A stretch of 64,000 nucleotides of DNA from Nitrospina sp. (GTDB lineage: Bacteria; Nitrospinota; Nitrospinia; Nitrospinales; VA-1): the NCBI GenBank assembly GCA_018697205.1, contig JABHTG010000135.1, forward strand, positions 1 to 64,000, written 5' to 3'. The notes under the pieces were generated by a model. That model was not told the origin of the DNA. It was given only the letters and a program-made list of their open reading frames with translations, and made no database searches. The position numbers and the translations under genes are program-made. This document shows positions 55,754 through 64,000 of the stretch, in pieces. Position 1 is the stretch's first letter. Each line of letters opens with the position of its first letter.

Positions 55754-56779
55754 TCATTTTTTATTTTCAACAGGCCCTACAATAGTTTTATTTCTTCCAC
55801 TCTTCTTTGCTTTATAGAGCGCTTGATCTGCCACGGCTACTAACTGTTCGGTATTTTTCATAGACTCTTTATTTAACTCAGCAATGCCACAGCTTGCAGT
55901 CACAGAAAAATTAGATTCCTTTCCAGTAAAGCTCATATTCATCATTTCTTCTCTCACACGCTCGGCGATATTAAAAGCACCCTGAGCATCCGACTGAGGA
56001 AGAATCATTAAAAACTCTTCTCCTCCATACCTAGCTGCAATGTCATTAGAACGACAAAATTTTTTCAACAAAAAGGCAACGGCTATGAGAATCTCATCTC
56101 CTTTTTGGTGACCATAAGTATCATTTACATCTTTAAAGTTGTCCACGTCTAAAAGAATCACTGATAACGGAGAATTGTACCGCGTACTCCGTTCGAACTC
56201 ACTTAGCAAAGATTTCTCCATATCTTGGCGGTTTGAAATTCCTGTCAATCCATCGGTCACCGCTAAATTCTTTGTCTGTTCATATAAAACTGCGTTACTG
56301 ATCGACAGCGCGATAAATTCAGATAGGTTTAAAATAAAGTCTAGGTCGCTAACGTCGAATGGATCTTGGTCTACATCATTAATATTTAACACACCCACTA
56401 TTTCTTTTTCGATCATTAGAGGAATTGATACAAAATAACCCTTTTTAAAAAGTGGATTGTCTGCTCCCCGGTAATACGAAGAAGTAGAAAAATTCTGCTC
56501 TCGGATATATTGACCACGTAAGATAGCAGCTTCCATGATTGGGGAACTCGATAAAGAAATTGAAAAAAAACTCTCTATCTCTGGGTGGTTGTGGCACATC
56601 AAATTCAATTTTCGTTTGTCCTTGTCGTAAAGGAATAATGTGAAATAGTCTATCGCGAAGACTGAAGGGAGACGGCTAATAAGCACTGAGGAGATCTCAT
56701 CCAAGCTTAATAAACTTATAGCCCTATGAAGGTCAATAAGTTCCTGATAACGAGGATGACCCAATTTATTTTTGCTCAT
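55754..56779 (-). CDS. GAF-GGDEF diguanylate cyclase
   Basis: The protein has 341 residues. A GAF sensory domain (about 15-165) precedes a GGDEF domain (about 170-335). The active-site motif is GGEEF at 252-256, and the product-inhibition I-site RxxD is intact at R243-D246. Other signatures are LAVTDGLTGISNRQDME, VILLDVDNFKDVNDTYGHQKGDE and ADQALYKAKKSGRN. It should make cyclic di-GMP in response to a ligand or redox signal at the GAF domain. It is divergent from the AMIN/TPR operon, and the dyad at 56845-56862 lies about 70 bp upstream of its start, so it could be co-regulated. Confidence 0.92.
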   Translation of the reverse strand: MSKNKLGHPRYQELIDLHRAISLLSLDEISSVLISRLPSVFAIDYFTLFLYDKDKRKLNLMCHNHPEIESFFSISLSSSPIMEAAILRGQYIREQNFSTSSYYRGADNPLFKKGYFVSIPLMIEKEIVGVLNINDVDQDPFDVSDLDFILNLSEFIALSISNAVLYEQTKNLAVTDGLTGISNRQDMEKSLLSEFERSTRYNSPLSVILLDVDNFKDVNDTYGHQKGDEILIAVAFLLKKFCRSNDIAARYGGEEFLMILPQSDAQGAFNIAERVREEMMNMSFTGKESNFSVTASCGIAELNKESMKNTEQLVAVADQALYKAKKSGRNKTIVGPVENKK

Positions 56780-56844: not shown

Positions 56845-56862
56845 TTGTCAAAAAAATGACAA
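56845..56862. promoter_or_regulatory. Dyad TTGTCA-N6-TGACAA, likely enhancer site of the sigma54 regulator
   Basis: Perfect 6-bp arms TTGTCA (56845-56850) and TGACAA (56857-56862) flank six A. The core TGTCA-N6-TGACA recurs at 62304-62319, again upstream of a sigma54 promoter. This copy is about 128 bp (centre to -24) upstream of the promoter at 56980. NtrC-class activators bind such dyads at this distance. Confidence 0.7.
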
Positions 56863-56979
56863 AGATCATTCTCTTAATCAACTATTGTGTTTTTATTAAT
56901 TATGAAAATACCCCTAACTCTATTTTTTTTATGGCCTTGACTGTAATCTCTACAACTCCCTAAAGAAGTATTTCACAAC

Positions 56980-56995
56980 TGGTATAAAAATTGCT
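56980..56995 (+). promoter_or_regulatory. Sigma54 promoter of the AMIN/TPR-kinase-regulator operon
   Basis: TGGTATAAAAATTGCT matches TGGYAYRNNNNTTGCW at every position. GG (56981-56982) and GC (56993-56994) have the required 10-nt spacing. Transcription should start near 57006, 36 nt before the ATG at 57042. Confidence 0.8.
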
Positions 56996-57041
56996 CTACT
57001 ATAATGACAATTGGCAACTCATACTCTTATAGTAAGATATC

Positions 57042-59633
57042 ATGAATCTTGTTAAAAAAAATAGATCAATCATATCTCTGTTTCTTGCTTCGATAGTTTT
57101 TTTCATTATTAGTGGAGAAAAAGCCCACGGACAAGAACACGCCGTGGGAGAGCCCACTAAAGCAAAACAAATCAATAAGATTCGAATTGGCCCACATCCA
57201 AAATACACACGCCTGCTTTTGGATATTTCGGGACCCGTGCAGTACGAAGTAAATGCTAATTTTTCAGAAAAAAAAATTAACCTTATTTTTGATAGCACTT
57301 CAGTAACGCCAAAAGTACAATCGAAAAAATATCGAGATAAAAATCTTGCTGCAATTGACGTTCAGTCCAATGAAGGGGGAATTACCTTAACTCTTCATTT
57401 AATCAATTCAAATACTCGTTTTTTTCACCATAAAAATACTTCTACCTCCCAGATAGTTCTAGATCTAAAGGGAACTACCAAGCCATTTCTCAAAACCAAA
57501 ATTGGCAAGGAAAAGCAAAAAAAAACAAAAACAAAACCAGAAAAAATCAAAGTAGCAAAAATGAAAGGCTTGTCTCCCGGACAGGTAAAAGAAGTAGTTT
57601 TAAAGAATGAAAAAGAAAAAAAAGATAATGGCTGGGAACAATATCAGAAAGCTTTAAAAGTTTATCAAGAAAGGAAGCTTGAGGATTACACAATTAAAGT
57701 TGAAAGCGAACCTGATCCAGAAACGGGGGAAACTGAAGAAATAGATAAAATTGAACCTGGAGCGATTTCATTATTTAGAAAGTACGCTAAAGACTATCCA
57801 AATAGTTCTCTTTTACCGAATATACTTTACCTACTTGCCGAAGCTGAGTTTCGAGTTGCATGGAAGCAAAAACACCCGAACTATGAAAAAGCTTTAGCTG
57901 CTTATAAGCATGCCACTAGAAAGTTTCCTAAGTCTCGCTTTTCTGATCATGCTCTCTATAAAATAGGCAATATCTTTGAGGAAATAGGCTATTCACTCGA
58001 AGCTAGAGTTTTGTATAACGAAGGTATCAATGGTAATAAAAAAAGTCTTTATAATACTGCACGCAAAAACAGTCTAGCCAATATGCTTTTAAAAGAAAAG
58101 CGCTATGACGATGCTTATAAAGCATTTCAAAAAATCCTAAAAAAATCTCCAAAATCTAACGAAGCTCAGTTGGCGATTATCACAATCGCTAACGAATATT
58201 TCAATCAAAAAGATTTTATCCGTGCACTAGATATCTATAATGAGGCTGTAAGGAGATGGCCCTCAGTAGTAAATAAAACACCGCTAATTTATAGCAATAT
58301 GGGAGAAATTTATTTCAAAAAAAGAGACTACCAAAAGGCTAGAAAGTTTTATTTCAATATGGTTAACATGGACCCTGCAAATAAAGAAGCGCATAGAGCT
58401 CTTAACCGTATTGGAGACCTTTATCTTATTCAAGGCAGAGAAATGGAAGCACTTTCAGTCTACGATCAGTCAGCTAAGCTTGATCCCGAAAATCGAGAGT
58501 CTCAATATGGGAAAATTCGTATGGCAGATATTGGGGTTCGTTATCCCAGGCTACCAGTAAATGAAGCGATTTTAGACGTTAATACTTATTTCAAACCACT
58601 AAAAGCTTATAACGAAATCTTGGAATCAGCCAAAGATATAGATATTCTAAGCGAAGTTACCATGAGCAAGGCAATAGCTTTATTAAAAGAACAAAACTAT
58701 CTTGAAGCGATTCAAGAGTTTAAAAAATTATTACCATTAGGTGAGGAGTCTAAGTTTTATCGTGATGCGACAAAATATATACACCAAGCTTTAGTATTCT
58801 TGGTAGATGGTTATGCAAAACAAGGGGGCGTTTTACCAATTCTTTATTCTTACACTGATTATGCTAGTCTTTCTATTGGAAAGATCAAAAGCTTAAAAAC
58901 ACTCTTACAAGTAGGGGAAGCCTATCAATCCTTGGGTATGCTACCCGAGGCTGTCCGGCTGTATGAAAAGGTAAAACAGTTAGATACTAGCAAGATGTAT
59001 AATGATAAAATTTTCCTTAACCTAGGGCAAATTCATTATGAAAGGGGAAATTACAGTGAAGCCGAGTTTGTAGCACGTAGCTTTCTAAAAAACTTTCCAC
59101 GCAGTCAAAAAACCCGTGAAGCCATGAAACTATTAGCTAAATCATTGAATGGACGACAAAAGCATGACGACGCTCTAGAAATTTATCAAAATATCCTAGA
59201 AAAATTTAAAAAATCTCCTGCAGAAATTCATTACCTTATGGCCACTTTGGAAGCGGGTCGTAACCAAAATACACAAGCAATAACCGCTTACGAAAAGACT
59301 ATCGACACCTTTGATCGTACTCAAAAGATAGTCCCAGATTATTTAAGAGAAGCTCATTACAAACTTGCAAACTCACTTTACCAAGAAGGTAAATACACCG
59401 AAAGCATAGATGCATTCGACGCAGCTATTAAATTATTTCCTAAGCACCCACACAGAAACTGGTCGGAATTTATATCAGCCGATGCACTCAAGAAAATTAA
59501 AAGTAATCAAAAAGCAACCGACCAGCTTAACCAATTAATTAAATCTAATCCAAAAAATGAGCTGATAAAAAAAGCCGCCCAATCACAACTTAAGGTAATG
59601 GAGTGGGAAAAAGAAAACACAAACCCCCTTTAA
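57042..59633 (+). CDS. Secreted AMIN-like/TPR protein
   Basis: The protein has 863 residues with a signal peptide (about residues 1-30). An AMIN-type beta domain (about 42-150) has IRIGPHPKYTRLLLDISGPVQY and VNANFSEKKINLIFDS. A Lys-rich linker follows (about 150-200). From about 235 on there are at least ten tetratricopeptide repeats, e.g. YEKALAAYKHATRKFPKS, YQKARKFYFNMVNMDP, YSEAEFVARSFLKNFP. AMIN domains often bind peptidoglycan, so a cell-wall or flagellum-linked scaffold is plausible. It leads an operon with the histidine kinase and sigma54 regulator, under the promoter at 56980. Confidence 0.83.
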   Translation: MNLVKKNRSIISLFLASIVFFIISGEKAHGQEHAVGEPTKAKQINKIRIGPHPKYTRLLLDISGPVQYEVNANFSEKKINLIFDSTSVTPKVQSKKYRDKNLAAIDVQSNEGGITLTLHLINSNTRFFHHKNTSTSQIVLDLKGTTKPFLKTKIGKEKQKKTKTKPEKIKVAKMKGLSPGQVKEVVLKNEKEKKDNGWEQYQKALKVYQERKLEDYTIKVESEPDPETGETEEIDKIEPGAISLFRKYAKDYPNSSLLPNILYLLAEAEFRVAWKQKHPNYEKALAAYKHATRKFPKSRFSDHALYKIGNIFEEIGYSLEARVLYNEGINGNKKSLYNTARKNSLANMLLKEKRYDDAYKAFQKILKKSPKSNEAQLAIITIANEYFNQKDFIRALDIYNEAVRRWPSVVNKTPLIYSNMGEIYFKKRDYQKARKFYFNMVNMDPANKEAHRALNRIGDLYLIQGREMEALSVYDQSAKLDPENRESQYGKIRMADIGVRYPRLPVNEAILDVNTYFKPLKAYNEILESAKDIDILSEVTMSKAIALLKEQNYLEAIQEFKKLLPLGEESKFYRDATKYIHQALVFLVDGYAKQGGVLPILYSYTDYASLSIGKIKSLKTLLQVGEAYQSLGMLPEAVRLYEKVKQLDTSKMYNDKIFLNLGQIHYERGNYSEAEFVARSFLKNFPRSQKTREAMKLLAKSLNGRQKHDDALEIYQNILEKFKKSPAEIHYLMATLEAGRNQNTQAITAYEKTIDTFDRTQKIVPDYLREAHYKLANSLYQEGKYTESIDAFDAAIKLFPKHPHRNWSEFISADALKKIKSNQKATDQLNQLIKSNPKNELIKKAAQSQLKVMEWEKENTNPL

Positions 59634-59696
59634 AGAACTTTTACGATCTTCTATAATGAGAATTAATATTGTTCTTCTAGACTCATCAACTTTCCT

Positions 59697-60917
59697 ATGA
59701 AAAACCCTCGTTCAGAAAAAAGTAGCCCTAGAGAAATTGCGATTCTTAATCAAGCATTTCAATCCTTCAATGAAGCTACGCAACAATTACAAAACTCTTA
59801 TGATGTACTTAATGAGGCTTTAGAAACAAACAAAAACTACCTGCATAATATTATGGAAAGTCTTCCCACAGGTGTAATCGTAGTTGATCAAAATAATGCT
59901 ATTAATACATTCAATAAAACTGCAGGCGCAATAACAGGCCTCGACCCAGAAACTTGCATTAACAAACAACTAAGTGAAGTCTTCACAACAGACCTTTTTG
60001 AAAAAATAGTTGGTCGAACAACCAAAGAAAAACAAAAGTCTCCCGTGATTGAAAGAGAAATCGAAACTCCTCATCATGGTAATATTTATACGCGTATTTC
60101 AACCTCTCCTGTTTTAGATAAAAAAAATAAGCAGATTGGGACAGTTCTCAATATAGAGGACATAACAGAGTTGCGCCGTCTGGGAGAAGAAGCCCAGCGC
60201 AACCGTCGCCTTAGAGCAACCGGAGAAATGGCCGCGGGTATAGCCCACGAAATAAGAAATCCATTGGGAAGCATTGAATTATTTTCATCACTACTTAAAA
60301 AAGATCTTAGTGAGGACCCCGATAAAAAACAAATTGTTGAACATATATCGGCCAGCGTGAAAAACATGGATAGAATTATTTCAAGTTTACTACTATTTGC
60401 AAAGTCTCCTCGACCGTCCCAACAACTATGCGATCTAAATGAACTGCTTAAAGACTTACTCAAAGACTCTTCTGCTATCCTGATCCCTCAAGGAATTAAC
60501 ACTATTTTTAGCTTTAGCGATAATGCCATTGCCAATGGCGACTCACATCTTCTTAAACAAGTTTTTATAAATCTCATCCGAAATGCTATCCAGGCTATGC
60601 CTGAGGGCGGTGACCTGACAATCACAACACAAAAAAGTCCCGACTTTGAAAAATCATCTGATCAACTTAACTATAGTCGACAATTTATAAAGGTTACTTT
60701 TGCTGATCAAGGTAAAGGTATTTCGGAGGAAAATCGAGCGAGTATTTTTAATCCTTTTTTTACAACAAAAGACCATGGAACGGGACTCGGCTTATCAATT
60801 TCTCATAACATTATAAAAGCTCACCAGGGGACTATTGATGTAGAAAACAAAGCGGGCAAAGGAGCCCAATTTATTCTTAAAATTCCATGTTGGGACCACG
60901 ACCTTGACAACAAATAA
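59697..60917 (+). CDS. PAS-domain sensor histidine kinase (FlrB/AtoS/NtrB-type)
   Basis: The protein has 406 residues with no transmembrane helix, so it is cytoplasmic. A coiled-coil N-terminus (about 10-50) precedes a PAS domain (about 50-160: SLPTGVIVVDQNNAINTFNKTAG). The phospho-acceptor is H184 in MAAGIAHEIRNPLGS. The ATPase domain has the N-box QVFINLIRNAIQAMPEG, G1 FADQGKGIS, and F/G2 FTTKDHGTGLGLSIS. It ends 14 nt inside the start of the response-regulator gene. The genetic setting next to flagellar genes suggests an FlrB/FleS-like role. Confidence 0.92.
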   Translation: MKNPRSEKSSPREIAILNQAFQSFNEATQQLQNSYDVLNEALETNKNYLHNIMESLPTGVIVVDQNNAINTFNKTAGAITGLDPETCINKQLSEVFTTDLFEKIVGRTTKEKQKSPVIEREIETPHHGNIYTRISTSPVLDKKNKQIGTVLNIEDITELRRLGEEAQRNRRLRATGEMAAGIAHEIRNPLGSIELFSSLLKKDLSEDPDKKQIVEHISASVKNMDRIISSLLLFAKSPRPSQQLCDLNELLKDLLKDSSAILIPQGINTIFSFSDNAIANGDSHLLKQVFINLIRNAIQAMPEGGDLTITTQKSPDFEKSSDQLNYSRQFIKVTFADQGKGISEENRASIFNPFFTTKDHGTGLGLSISHNIIKAHQGTIDVENKAGKGAQFILKIPCWDHDLDNK

Positions 60918-62280
60918 TTCTTCTAAAAATATTTTAGTCGTCGATGATGAAGTCGAAATGAGAATAGCACTCGAAACAACCCTAAAAAGGGAAGGCCATA
61001 GCATTACCATAGCTGAAAATGGCAAACAAGCCTTAGAAAAGTTGGAGGAAGATACTTTTGATTTAGTATTGACAGACGTAAAAATGCCCAAAATTAATGG
61101 CGTCGAGTTATTAAAGGCTCTTAAAAAAAAATCATCGCAAACAGTAGCCATTATGATGACGGCTTATGGTGATATTGATAATGCTGTTGAAACTATTAAG
61201 GCAGGCGCTTTTGATTATCTACTCAAACCATTTTCTGCAGAAATTCTTATAGCTACTGTAAATAGAGCTTTTATGGACAGTACTTCTACAAAAAACGTAC
61301 TTGTTCACCCTACACCTACAATAAGTAAAACTCCTAATCGTGAACGACGAATAATAACTCAAAATAAGAAAATGCTGGAGCTAATTAAGTTTGTTGAAAA
61401 TATTTCATACAGCAAGTCAACCGTCCTAATTATGGGCGATACCGGAACTGGCAAAGAAATGTTTGCTCGCTATATTCACCAGATGAGCCCCCGTGCACAA
61501 AAACCATTTATGGCAGTAAATTGTGCTGCTCTTCCTGAAGGTCTTCTTGAAACCGAATTATTTGGACACGAAAAAGGAGCTTTTACTGGAGCAATAGAAC
61601 GCAAAGATGGGAAATTTGAACTAGCTAATAAAGGAACTTTGTTGCTGGATGAGGTCACTGAAATGAGCTTACCCCTTCAAGCTAAATTATTACGCGTTTT
61701 ACAAGAACATGAAATAGACAAAGTTGGCGGGAGCAAGTCGGTCCCTGTTGATGTCCGTGTTGTCGCCACAACGAACAGAGACATCAAAGAGCGCATCAGA
61801 GAAAATCAATTCCGCGAAGATTTATATTATCGCTTGAATGTAATTCCCCTGAAACTAATTCCTCTAAGAGATAGAATTGATGACATTCAGACGCTAGCCG
61901 AGCATTTTATCGAAAAACACACTGCTGATCTAAATAAAAATATCTCCCACATTGCGACAGAAACTATCGAACTACTTAAAAAATACAGCTGGCCCGGCAA
62001 CGTGCGAGAACTAGAAAATATAATTGAAAGAGCAACTCTCATGTGCCATGAAAATACTCTACTCCCCTCTCACCTTTTCTTTGATGAAGAAGAAATAAAA
62101 ATCGAAACCCGTCCTCTCGAAACATTTAAAGGAACAATACACGATATGGAAAAAGAACTTATCACCCAAACTCTAGAAGAGGTCAATGGAAACAAAACAA
62201 AAGCTGCCGAAAATTTAGGCATCAGCATACGTACTCTTCGCAATAAACTAGCCTCTTACAAGAACCCCTTAAAAAGCTAA
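60904..62280 (+). CDS. Sigma54-activating response regulator (FlrC/FleR/NtrC-type)
   Basis: The protein has 458 residues. The receiver domain (about 8-120) has the acidic pair D14-D15 and phospho-acceptor D58 (LVLTDVKMP). The AAA+ domain carries Walker A GDTGTGKE (178-185), the sigma54-contact loop GAFTGA at 225-230, and Walker B LLLDEVTEM. The C-terminal Fis-type helix-turn-helix (about 415-455) reads GNKTKAAENLGISIRTLRNKL. The start is TTG overlapping the kinase gene by 14 nt; the next Met would delete the receiver. It is expected to bind the TGTCA-N6-TGACA dyads at 56845 and 62304 and activate the promoters at 56980 and 62453. Confidence 0.94.
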   Translation: MTTNNSSKNILVVDDEVEMRIALETTLKREGHSITIAENGKQALEKLEEDTFDLVLTDVKMPKINGVELLKALKKKSSQTVAIMMTAYGDIDNAVETIKAGAFDYLLKPFSAEILIATVNRAFMDSTSTKNVLVHPTPTISKTPNRERRIITQNKKMLELIKFVENISYSKSTVLIMGDTGTGKEMFARYIHQMSPRAQKPFMAVNCAALPEGLLETELFGHEKGAFTGAIERKDGKFELANKGTLLLDEVTEMSLPLQAKLLRVLQEHEIDKVGGSKSVPVDVRVVATTNRDIKERIRENQFREDLYYRLNVIPLKLIPLRDRIDDIQTLAEHFIEKHTADLNKNISHIATETIELLKKYSWPGNVRELENIIERATLMCHENTLLPSHLFFDEEEIKIETRPLETFKGTIHDMEKELITQTLEEVNGNKTKAAENLGISIRTLRNKLASYKNPLKS

Positions 62281-62303
62281 ACAATGCTATATTTGTCTTG
62301 ACC

Positions 62304-62319
62304 TGTCAAATAAATGACA
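62304..62319. promoter_or_regulatory. Dyad TGTCA-N6-TGACA, second likely enhancer site
   Basis: TGTCA (62304-62308), AATAAA, TGACA (62315-62319), the same architecture as at 56845-56862. It lies about 142 bp upstream of the -24 element of the flgC promoter, and 24 bp after the stop codon of the regulator gene itself. Confidence 0.7.
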
Positions 62320-62452: not shown

Positions 62453-62468
62453 TGGTATGGTTATTGCT
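62453..62468 (+). promoter_or_regulatory. Sigma54 promoter of the flgC-fliF operon
   Basis: TGGTATGGTTATTGCT matches TGGYAYRNNNNTTGCW at every position, with GG at 62454-62455 and GC at 62466-62467 spaced by 10 nt. Transcription should start near 62479, about 64 nt before the flgC ATG. Confidence 0.82.
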
Positions 62469-62542: not shown

Positions 62543-62980
62543 ATGGATTTTTTAACATCAATGAAAATCAGTTCATCTGGATTGAACGTTCAACGCAAAC
62601 TTATGGAAACGGTTTCTAGTAATCTCGCAAATATCGAAACCACACGTACACCAGAAGGAGGTCCTTACAGACGCAAAGAACTCGTTGTCACAGCACAACC
62701 ATTTGAAAATAGTCTCAATGAAGCATTGAAGTCTGAACTTGGAGAAAATGTTTTGCAATCTATGATTACAGAAATCATAGAAGACCAAAGTGAGCCTCGG
62801 TTAGTATTTAATCCCAATCACCCCGATGCCAATGAAGCAGGTTATGTAGCAATGCCTAATGTTGATCTGATGACAGAAATGGTAAACCTTGTAACAAGTA
62901 CAAGGGGATTCGAGGCAAACGTCACTGCTATGAATGCTACTAAGTCAATGGCTCAACGAGCTATCGAACTTGGAAGATAA
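62543..62980 (+). CDS. flgC: Flagellar basal-body rod protein FlgC
   Basis: The protein has 145 residues, the normal length for the proximal-rod protein. The N-terminal SSGLNVQRKLMETVSSNLANIETT is the conserved rod/hook signature, and NPNHPDANEAGYVAMPNVDLMTEMVNL with the C-terminal helix MNATKSMAQRAIELGR are FlgC-specific. GGAAGG lies ahead of the ATG. FlgB normally precedes flgC and FliE follows it, but neither is present here: the gene directly follows the sigma54 promoter and is followed by fliF. Confidence 0.95.
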   Translation: MDFLTSMKISSSGLNVQRKLMETVSSNLANIETTRTPEGGPYRRKELVVTAQPFENSLNEALKSELGENVLQSMITEIIEDQSEPRLVFNPNHPDANEAGYVAMPNVDLMTEMVNLVTSTRGFEANVTAMNATKSMAQRAIELGR

Positions 62981-63012: not shown

Positions 63013-64000
63013 ATGAATCCAATACAGACAATTTTTAGCCAACTTAGCGAACGTTTTACAAGTCTATCACAAGGACAAAAGGTAGCCGCTCTCGTTCTCG
63101 CTACAGTAATCATCGGCTCTATTCTTTCCATGTCATTTTGGATTAAAACACCCGATCTGCAATTATTATATGCAAACCTCAGTGAAAAAGATGCCGCAGC
63201 TATTGTTGATAATTTAAAATCTCAAAAAATTCCTTACGAGTTGTCAAATCAAGGAAAAACTATCCGTGTCCCATCAAACCAAGTACATGAAATTCGCTTA
63301 AAAATGGCGAGTGAAGGCCTCCCAGAAGGAAGCGATGTTGGACTTGAGATATTTGATAAAACGTCATTGGGAATGACTGATTTTATTCAAAAGTTAAATT
63401 ATCAACGTGCACTTCAAGGAGAACTCTCCCGAACTATTCAAACATTGAATTCAGTAGATAGCGCACGTGTACATTTGGTTATCCCAAAACAAACTTTATT
63501 TCTAAGAGAAAAACCCAAAGGAAAAGCATCTGTTACTATCAAAACCAAAGCTGGGAGATCTTTAAACGAGAAACAAGTCCAAGGAATAATCCATTTGGTT
63601 TCTTCTAGTGTTGAGGGAATCACGGCAGATAATGTAGCTGTTGTAGATGTAAAAGGAAATTTACTTAGCGGAGCTCAAGAGGGGAGCGCTAGCGCTGCGC
63701 GTTCATCTTCCAACTATCAACATAAACGCCAAGTCGAAAAAGAGCTTGAAAAAAATATCATAGTCATGCTTGAAGATGCTCTAGGCCAAGGAATGGTTAT
63801 TTCTCGCGTAACAGCCGACTTGGATTTTGAGAAAAATGATCAGACAGAAGAAATTTATGACCCAGAGTCACAAGTTGTTCGTAGTCAACAGACTGCCTCA
63901 GAATCAGTTGTTGGTGCAACTCCTACAGGAGGGGTTATAGGTGTTCAAGCGCAATTACCTGCTGGACAAAATGAAGGTGGAACTGGAACATCAGGGCAAC
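63013..64000 (+). CDS. fliF: Flagellar MS-ring protein FliF, N-terminal part (runs off the window)
   Basis: An ATG at 63013 opens a frame that stays open to the end of the window (329 codons); the C-terminus is not included. A transmembrane helix lies at about residues 24-45 (VAALVLATVIIGSILSMSFW). The periplasmic ring-building motifs follow: LYANLSEKDAAAIVDNLK, KMASEGLPEGSDVG, IFDKTSLGMTDFIQKLNYQRALQGELSRTI and SARVHLVIPKQTLFLR. The final part in view is the Gly-rich linker GVIGVQAQLPAGQNEGGTG. It starts 32 nt after flgC with no clear ribosome-binding site. Confidence 0.95.
   Translation, partial: MNPIQTIFSQLSERFTSLSQGQKVAALVLATVIIGSILSMSFWIKTPDLQLLYANLSEKDAAAIVDNLKSQKIPYELSNQGKTIRVPSNQVHEIRLKMASEGLPEGSDVGLEIFDKTSLGMTDFIQKLNYQRALQGELSRTIQTLNSVDSARVHLVIPKQTLFLREKPKGKASVTIKTKAGRSLNEKQVQGIIHLVSSSVEGITADNVAVVDVKGNLLSGAQEGSASAARSSSNYQHKRQVEKELEKNIIVMLEDALGQGMVISRVTADLDFEKNDQTEEIYDPESQVVRSQQTASESVVGATPTGGVIGVQAQLPAGQNEGGTGTSGQ

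Follow-up and report, generated by a model that had tools for sequence, protein, structure and literature searches.

Two copies of the inverted repeat TGTCA-N6-TGACA lie in a 64,000-nucleotide stretch of Nitrospina sp. DNA (GenBank assembly GCA_018697205.1, contig JABHTG010000135.1, positions 1 to 64,000; here the window), each upstream of a sigma54 promoter, with the gene of a flagellar-type sigma54 response regulator between them. The question raised by this locus is which protein acts through the two dyads. A reading made from the letters of the window (the sequence-only reading) had proposed that the regulator encoded at 60904 binds both, activating its own operon as well as flgC-fliF. The present analysis points to a different assignment: very probably a FleQ-like activator encoded elsewhere in the genome, here called the C57 protein, drives the operons behind the dyads, and the window regulator, a product of one of these operons, then drives rod and hook genes.

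Both dyads, TGTCAAAAAAATGACA at 56846–56861 and TGTCAAATAAATGACA at 62304–62319, matched TGTCA-N6-TGACA exactly; 0.06 such matches were expected by chance per 64 kb, and two dyads were found in none of 100 shuffles. Only two exact sigma54 −24/−12 sites were present in the window (expected 0.14), each 3′ of one dyad, the distance from dyad start to promoter start being 134 bp for the first dyad and 149 bp for the second. The description of two dyads 5′ of full-consensus sigma54 promoters was therefore borne out as exact and beyond chance, and the location of the first stood, although the limits 56845–56862 took in one base too many at either end.

The genome to which the window belongs (G000) is a Nitrospinota metagenome-assembled genome (MAG) of 2.48 Mb in 148 contigs, ~85 % complete. 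It contained four exact dyads and 12 exact sigma54 sites, and three of the four dyads lay 122, 134 and 149 bp 5′ of a sigma54 site (P = 7e-9 for three of four dyads ≤250 bp upstream of 12 sites). The operons behind these promoters were TPR-kinase-regulator, flgC-fliF and fliL-fliM, the last running fliL, fliM, fliN, fliP, fliR, flhB, flhA, flhF, flhG (names after fliM read from translations). The fourth dyad (C94:27423) was located within an ATP-binding cassette (ABC) permease gene and had no sigma54 site. The genome scan that the sequence-only reading had put forward thus revealed enrichment of dyads 5′ of sigma54 sites, with three of the four hits ahead of operons of flagellar context.

Conservation was compared across 77 Nitrospinota genomes, with the reversed pattern as control. 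The full 16-bp dyad with a sigma54 site was confined to the genus of G000. Its core, GTCA-N6-TGAC, was found 106–136 bp before a sigma54 site in 40 of the 77 genomes and with a gap of 137–167 bp in 11 (44 genomes for both gaps combined), and the reversed pattern gave no match with a sigma54 site in either gap search. The consensus over 66 class sites was yGTCAAAwnnATGAC; the core of the proposed operator is therefore conserved, whereas its outermost T and A are not. All classifiable core-sigma54 sites preceded flgC-fliF, fliL-fliM, a TPR/AMIN gene or, once, flgB (with fliE), the downstream genes being named with proteins of the window and of G000; four sites lay too close to a contig end to be classified. 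Distances from core to promoter were specific to the operon: 147–152 bp for flgC-fliF in most relatives (131–133 bp in a few), 120–124 bp for fliL-fliM (155 in one genome) and 131–178 bp for the TPR/AMIN gene. Among 25 fliL promoters with a sigma54 site upstream of fliM, 19 carried the exact core at 121–124 bp and a further four carried it with one mismatch at 113–123 bp. Loci from SAR324, Krumholzibacteria and other groups were also scanned for the box and held too few sigma54 sites for comparison. The enrichment, class-wide conservation and operon-specific spacing support the earlier view of the dyads as enhancer-like sites of sigma54 flagellar promoters.

The class core is identical, letter for letter, to the core of the published FleQ/FlrA box. 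The Pseudomonas FleQ box has been given as GTCaNTAAAtTGAC and GTCAaAAAAtTGAC (PMC6120874) and as GTCAAT-N2-ATTGAC (PMC10723142), whilst the site of the FleQ/FlrA-like protein DVU2894 is yGTCA-N6-TGACr and the FlrA region of flrBC contains GTCA-N6-TGGC (PMC4641369). The Nitrospinota element shares with these both the GTCA-N6-TGAC pseudopalindrome and a position 5′ of sigma54 promoters of early flagellar and kinase/regulator operons. By sequence and context, the window dyads qualify as FleQ-type boxes.

A candidate binder was present in the same genome. The C57 protein (G000:C57:41036-42082) is a receiverless sigma54 activator of 349 amino acids, comprising an AAA+ domain with a GAFTGA loop and a Fis-type helix-turn-helix (HTH) whose recognition helix reads RTTLVEK, as in FleQ. 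Its best match in the PDB was FleQ (E 1.3e-89, aligned through the HTH end), followed by FlrA (E 2.9e-85), with other activators behind. The recognition helix is NRTTLVEKIKKM in the C57 protein and RRTTLVEKMRKY in FleQ, compared with SIRTLRNKLASY in the window regulator, and no other of the six full sigma54 activators that turned up in G000 possessed the FleQ-type helix. Moreover, an exact GTCA-N6-TGAC was found 48 bp before the start codon of the C57-type gene in all seven members of the genus with readable upstream DNA; its spacer varies, being exactly GTCAAT-N2-ATTGAC in G052, G053 and G054, and the remainder of these loci held two cores in 180 kb. Outside the genus, the own-gene box had one mismatch in G023, and in G048 and G067 the core lay further upstream. 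No sigma54 site was found near the own-gene box of C57-type loci, an arrangement that suggests autorepression of the FleQ-like gene.

As described previously, the gene at 60904–62280, between the dyads, encodes a flagellar-type sigma54 response regulator: domain and FlbD family matches agreed on this. The protein is ~85 % identical to Nitrospina and Nitrospinaceae MAG proteins, shows the REC, AAA+ (GAFTGA) and Fis HTH arrangement of FlbD, FlrC and FleR, and is encoded next to a sensor kinase. It matched the FlbD model NF050807 from end to end (E 6.9e-120), under the strict equivalog cut-off, and other sigma54 families scored as well or better. Published FlbD-type sites are GGCA-N4-TGCC in Desulfovibrio vulgaris (DVU1063) and CCCGGCA-N5-TGCCGGG in Caulobacter (PMC3333781).

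A second motif of this kind, GGnA-N5-TnCC, was present in all 21 flgF sigma54 promoters located (21 Nitrospinota genomes), at −122 to −138, whereas shuffled flgF promoters gave a mean of 0.9 and a maximum of five. It had been spotted by eye in aligned flgF promoters and was then tested on the same data, with shuffles and all other spacers as controls. Other spacers were far rarer, N6 giving nine hits that were mostly the same sites shifted by one base in G-rich runs, and dyad discovery with plain 4-mers at these promoters gave nothing clear. Nine of the 30 flgF loci, mostly landing on flgG, had no flgF promoter for analysis and were left out rather than scored as negative. Thus the rod/hook promoters carry, as judged from their letters, an operator of the GGCA-N4/5-TGCC type. 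In G000 the promoters of flgF (−122), flgJ (−107), fliK (−92) and an outer-membrane transporter-like gene (−109) carried GGnA-N5-TnCC only, those of TPR, flgC and fliL carried the GTCA box only, and none carried both.

The transporter-like gene (name read from sequence) is POTRA/ShlB-like and lies behind an exact sigma54 promoter at G000:C4:53648 (L005), with GGAAGATTATTCC at −109; it may be a target of the window regulator without a flagellar role. A conserved TTGAC followed GGnA-N5-TnCC within ~8–14 bases in most of the flgF promoters from other genera (L260–L281), and a single flgF promoter contained the GTCA core (G047, at −243). The fliL promoters of G037, G039, G040 and G045 (L153, L154, L155 and L159; one genus) carried GGAAAAnCATTCC at −102, just 3′ of the FleQ-type box.

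Gene content in the relatives bore on both candidate binders. No orthologue of the window regulator and no flgF match was found in G023, G049 and G050 (91, 65 and 95 % complete, respectively). All three retained the FleQ-like gene and a box-sigma54 promoter before an AMIN gene that was joined to, or followed by, fliG, and G050 had an additional box-sigma54 promoter before fliM-fliN.

Several observations weigh against the C57 protein as binder of the boxes. It starts at the AAA+ domain and has no FleQ N-terminal domain; PF06490, which represents that domain, gave no match in G000 and only weak cross-hits to receiver domains in the class. The c-di-GMP (cyclic di-GMP) residues of FleQ are R144, R185, N186, E330 and R334 (PMC8335546), and the residues aligned with them are H, R, A, H and K, so that four of the five are missing and R185 alone is kept. 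For these reasons the protein is named FleQ-like, or DVU2894-like, and not FleQ. With the exception of G048 and G067, its own-gene box is degenerate or absent outside the genus. Because the FleQ consensus is loose in Pseudomonas fluorescens (PMC6120874), the box alone is no proof of FleQ binding, and 11 of the 63 class box promoters also carried GGnA-N5-TnCC, so that in some genera an overlap between the two tiers is possible. A FleQ-like hit was absent from five box genomes (G012 and G022, 94 % complete; G013, G017 and G021, 70–72 %), and the association of box presence with the window regulator (Fisher p 6e-6) was no weaker than that with the FleQ-like gene (0.025), incomplete assemblies and shared flagellum loss confounding both associations. 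Gene content alone therefore does not decide the binder, and the FleQ-like assignment rests mostly on the motif, the HTH and the own-gene box.

That association, 39 of the 44 box genomes having the window regulator, and the position of a flagellar-type activator gene between both sites are what speak for the regulator itself binding TGTCA-N6-TGACA and activating its own operon, flgC-fliF and fliL. This proposal is probably wrong, and we consider it very unlikely. The HTH of the regulator is FlbD-like, and the published site of that family is GGCA-N4/5-TGCC (PMC3333781), not GTCA-N6-TGAC, which is the FleQ/FlrA box; the FlbD-type match is missing from both window dyad promoters and from the fliL promoter, yet occurs at every flgF promoter located; and the boxes kept in G023, G049 and G050 without the regulator are hard to reconcile with it as binder, the C57 protein, with a box of its own, being the better match. 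A variant compatible with the two-tier arrangement, in which early promoters respond to the FleQ-like protein through the GTCA box and, at some early operons, also to feedback from the window regulator through a second site, has a modest chance of being correct: the 11 box promoters with GGnA-N5-TnCC hold it within 300 bp, including the four one-genus fliL promoters with the site at −102, whereas in G000 all three box promoters are without it, and with so wobbly a pattern some of the hits are attributable to chance. Finally, the arms and 6-bp spacer of the 16-bp dyad resemble the layout of CRP/FNR-type sites, TGTGA-N6-TCACA. Binding by an unrelated factor of that kind was rejected as extremely improbable, given that flagellar operons are the only ones whose sigma54 promoters have the sites at enhancer distance, that their core equals the FleQ box and that the FleQ-like gene has a box as well.

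We therefore favour the cascade led by the FleQ-like protein. What is read directly from sequence is the boxes with their promoters and conservation, the second motif and both types of HTH; binding, the direction of regulation and the order of expression are proposed as follows. A dimer of the C57 protein would bind the GTCA-N6-TGAC core through its Fis-type HTH and loop to sigma54-RNA polymerase ~120–150 bp downstream, starting the early operons TPR-kinase-regulator, flgC-fliF-fliG and fliL-fliM-fliN...flhB-flhA-flhF-flhG. The response regulator, as a product of this early tier, would be activated by the neighbouring kinase and would then act at GGnA-N5-TnCC to switch on the rod/hook genes flgF-flgG, flgJ-flgK and fliK. 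FlhG/FleN, encoded in the fliL regulon, is a natural candidate for the signal to the FleQ-like protein. FleQ itself requires FleN to bind well (PMC10723142). Such a hierarchy operates in Pseudomonas aeruginosa and Vibrio cholerae, where FleQ/FlrA and sigma54 start early genes that include a second kinase/regulator pair (fleSR in P. aeruginosa), which in turn starts rod/hook genes (PMC3930126); FleR recognises flgBCDE, flgFGHIJKL and fliC (PMC8335546). The targets in Nitrospinota are split in the same way.

The genomes that keep boxes without the window regulator raise a separate possibility. These genomes (G049, G050 and G023; loci L247, L248, L285, L246 and L321) lack flgF, FlhA and the window regulator, yet keep the box-sigma54-AMIN-fliG arrangement. 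Both G050 and G023 yielded a fliM-fliN-flhG group, which in G050 lies behind a box and comes with fliA; in G023 AMIN and a part of FliG form one reading frame. In these Nitrospinota, apparently without a flagellum (G023, G050 and probably G049), the FleQ-like activator and box promoters may run an orphan C-ring module of AMIN protein-fliG and fliM-fliN-flhG (with fliA in G050), a suggestion to which we give slightly less than an even chance. If it holds, box and binder would have persisted after the loss of the window-type regulator and of the flagellum, with the C-ring proteins serving another structure.

The features of the window locus are listed in Table 1. In its structural model, the AMIN/TPR protein consists of a signal-like helix, a beta-sandwich AMIN domain and a TPR superhelix. 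Its best fold match was 9hmf, a Campylobacter flagellar-motor periplasmic scaffold (864 alignment columns, template modelling score 0.27–0.29); presumably the protein resembles PflA, the match being to the entry rather than to an identified chain. A gene for a GAF-GGDEF diguanylate cyclase (55754–56779) diverges from the TPR operon, its start codon 67 bp from the 56846 box; the same layout is found in G053, G054 and G024 and is missing from G050. The divergent GGDEF gene had prompted the idea of a c-di-GMP-sensing FleQ, which was dropped as the binding residues are mostly absent from the C57 protein.

Table 1. Features of the window locus (positions in the 64,000-nucleotide window)
Feature	Position	Strand	Remarks
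Dyad, FleQ-type box of TPR-kinase-regulator operon, core GTCAAAAAAATGAC (56847–56860)	56846–56861	.	Core at orthologous position in G053, G054, G024
Sigma54 promoter TGGTATAAAAATTGCT	56980–56995	+	Exact consensus match
Periplasmic AMIN + TPR protein, 863 amino acids	57042–59633	+	Pfam; model pLDDT (predicted local distance difference test) 84; Foldseek E 3.4e-18 to 9hmf
PAS-HisKA-HATPase sensor kinase, FlrB/FleS position	59697–60917	+	
FlbD/FlrC-like response regulator: REC with D58, AAA+ with GAFTGA, Fis HTH 'GISIRTLRNKL'	60904–62280	+	Proposed box target, not binder
Dyad, FleQ-type box of flgC-fliF, core GTCAAATAAATGAC (62305–62318)	62304–62319	.	
Sigma54 promoter TGGTATGGTTATTGCT	62453–62468	+	Exact consensus match
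flgC, leads flgC-fliF-fliG operon	62543–62980	+	TIGR01395 E 3.3e-45; FliG downstream on contig
fliF (MS ring), runs past window end	63013–64000	+	Named from position after flgC and downstream fliG homology

For Nitrospinota, marine nitrite oxidisers, no earlier map of a two-tier sigma54 flagellar cascade came up in a narrow literature search, and the one drawn here from sequence is apparently the first. It assigns GTCA-N6-TGAC and GGnA-N5-TnCC, which are largely exclusive, each to a separate activator. The pattern suggests that this phylum shares the FleQ-over-FlbD/FlrC hierarchy known from Pseudomonas and Vibrio, headed here by a FleQ that has no receiver. An easy error is corrected as well, since a regulator gene between two sites need not encode their binder.

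Among known systems, the box is closest to the Pseudomonas FleQ box and the Vibrio FlrA site (class II), with which it shares GTCA-N6-TGAC with an A/T spacer and a position 5′ of sigma54 early operons that include a kinase/regulator pair, fliL and MS-ring/export genes. It differs in that the candidate binder has no receiver-like domain and lacks four of the five c-di-GMP residues, and in that the Nitrospinota boxes stand at fixed, operon-specific distances of ~120–178 bp. DVU2894 of D. vulgaris, a predicted flagellar regulator, likewise has no N-terminal domain and has an own-gene box with no conserved sigma54 promoter close to it (PMC4641369); it belongs to another phylum and has GAFTHA where the C57 protein has GAFTGA, and in Nitrospinota three target operons are conserved class-wide. 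The window regulator, for its part, resembles FlbD, DVU1063, FleR and FlrC in domain order, in a candidate site, GGnA-N5-TnCC, that fits GGCA-N4/5-TGCC, and in its rod/hook targets. Unlike FlbD, which is controlled by FliX, and DVU1063, which has an atypical receiver, it keeps the phosphoacceptor D58 and adjoins a kinase. The components are thus of known kinds, and what appears new is their use in Nitrospinota, where the activator has no receiver and the two enhancers largely exclude each other.

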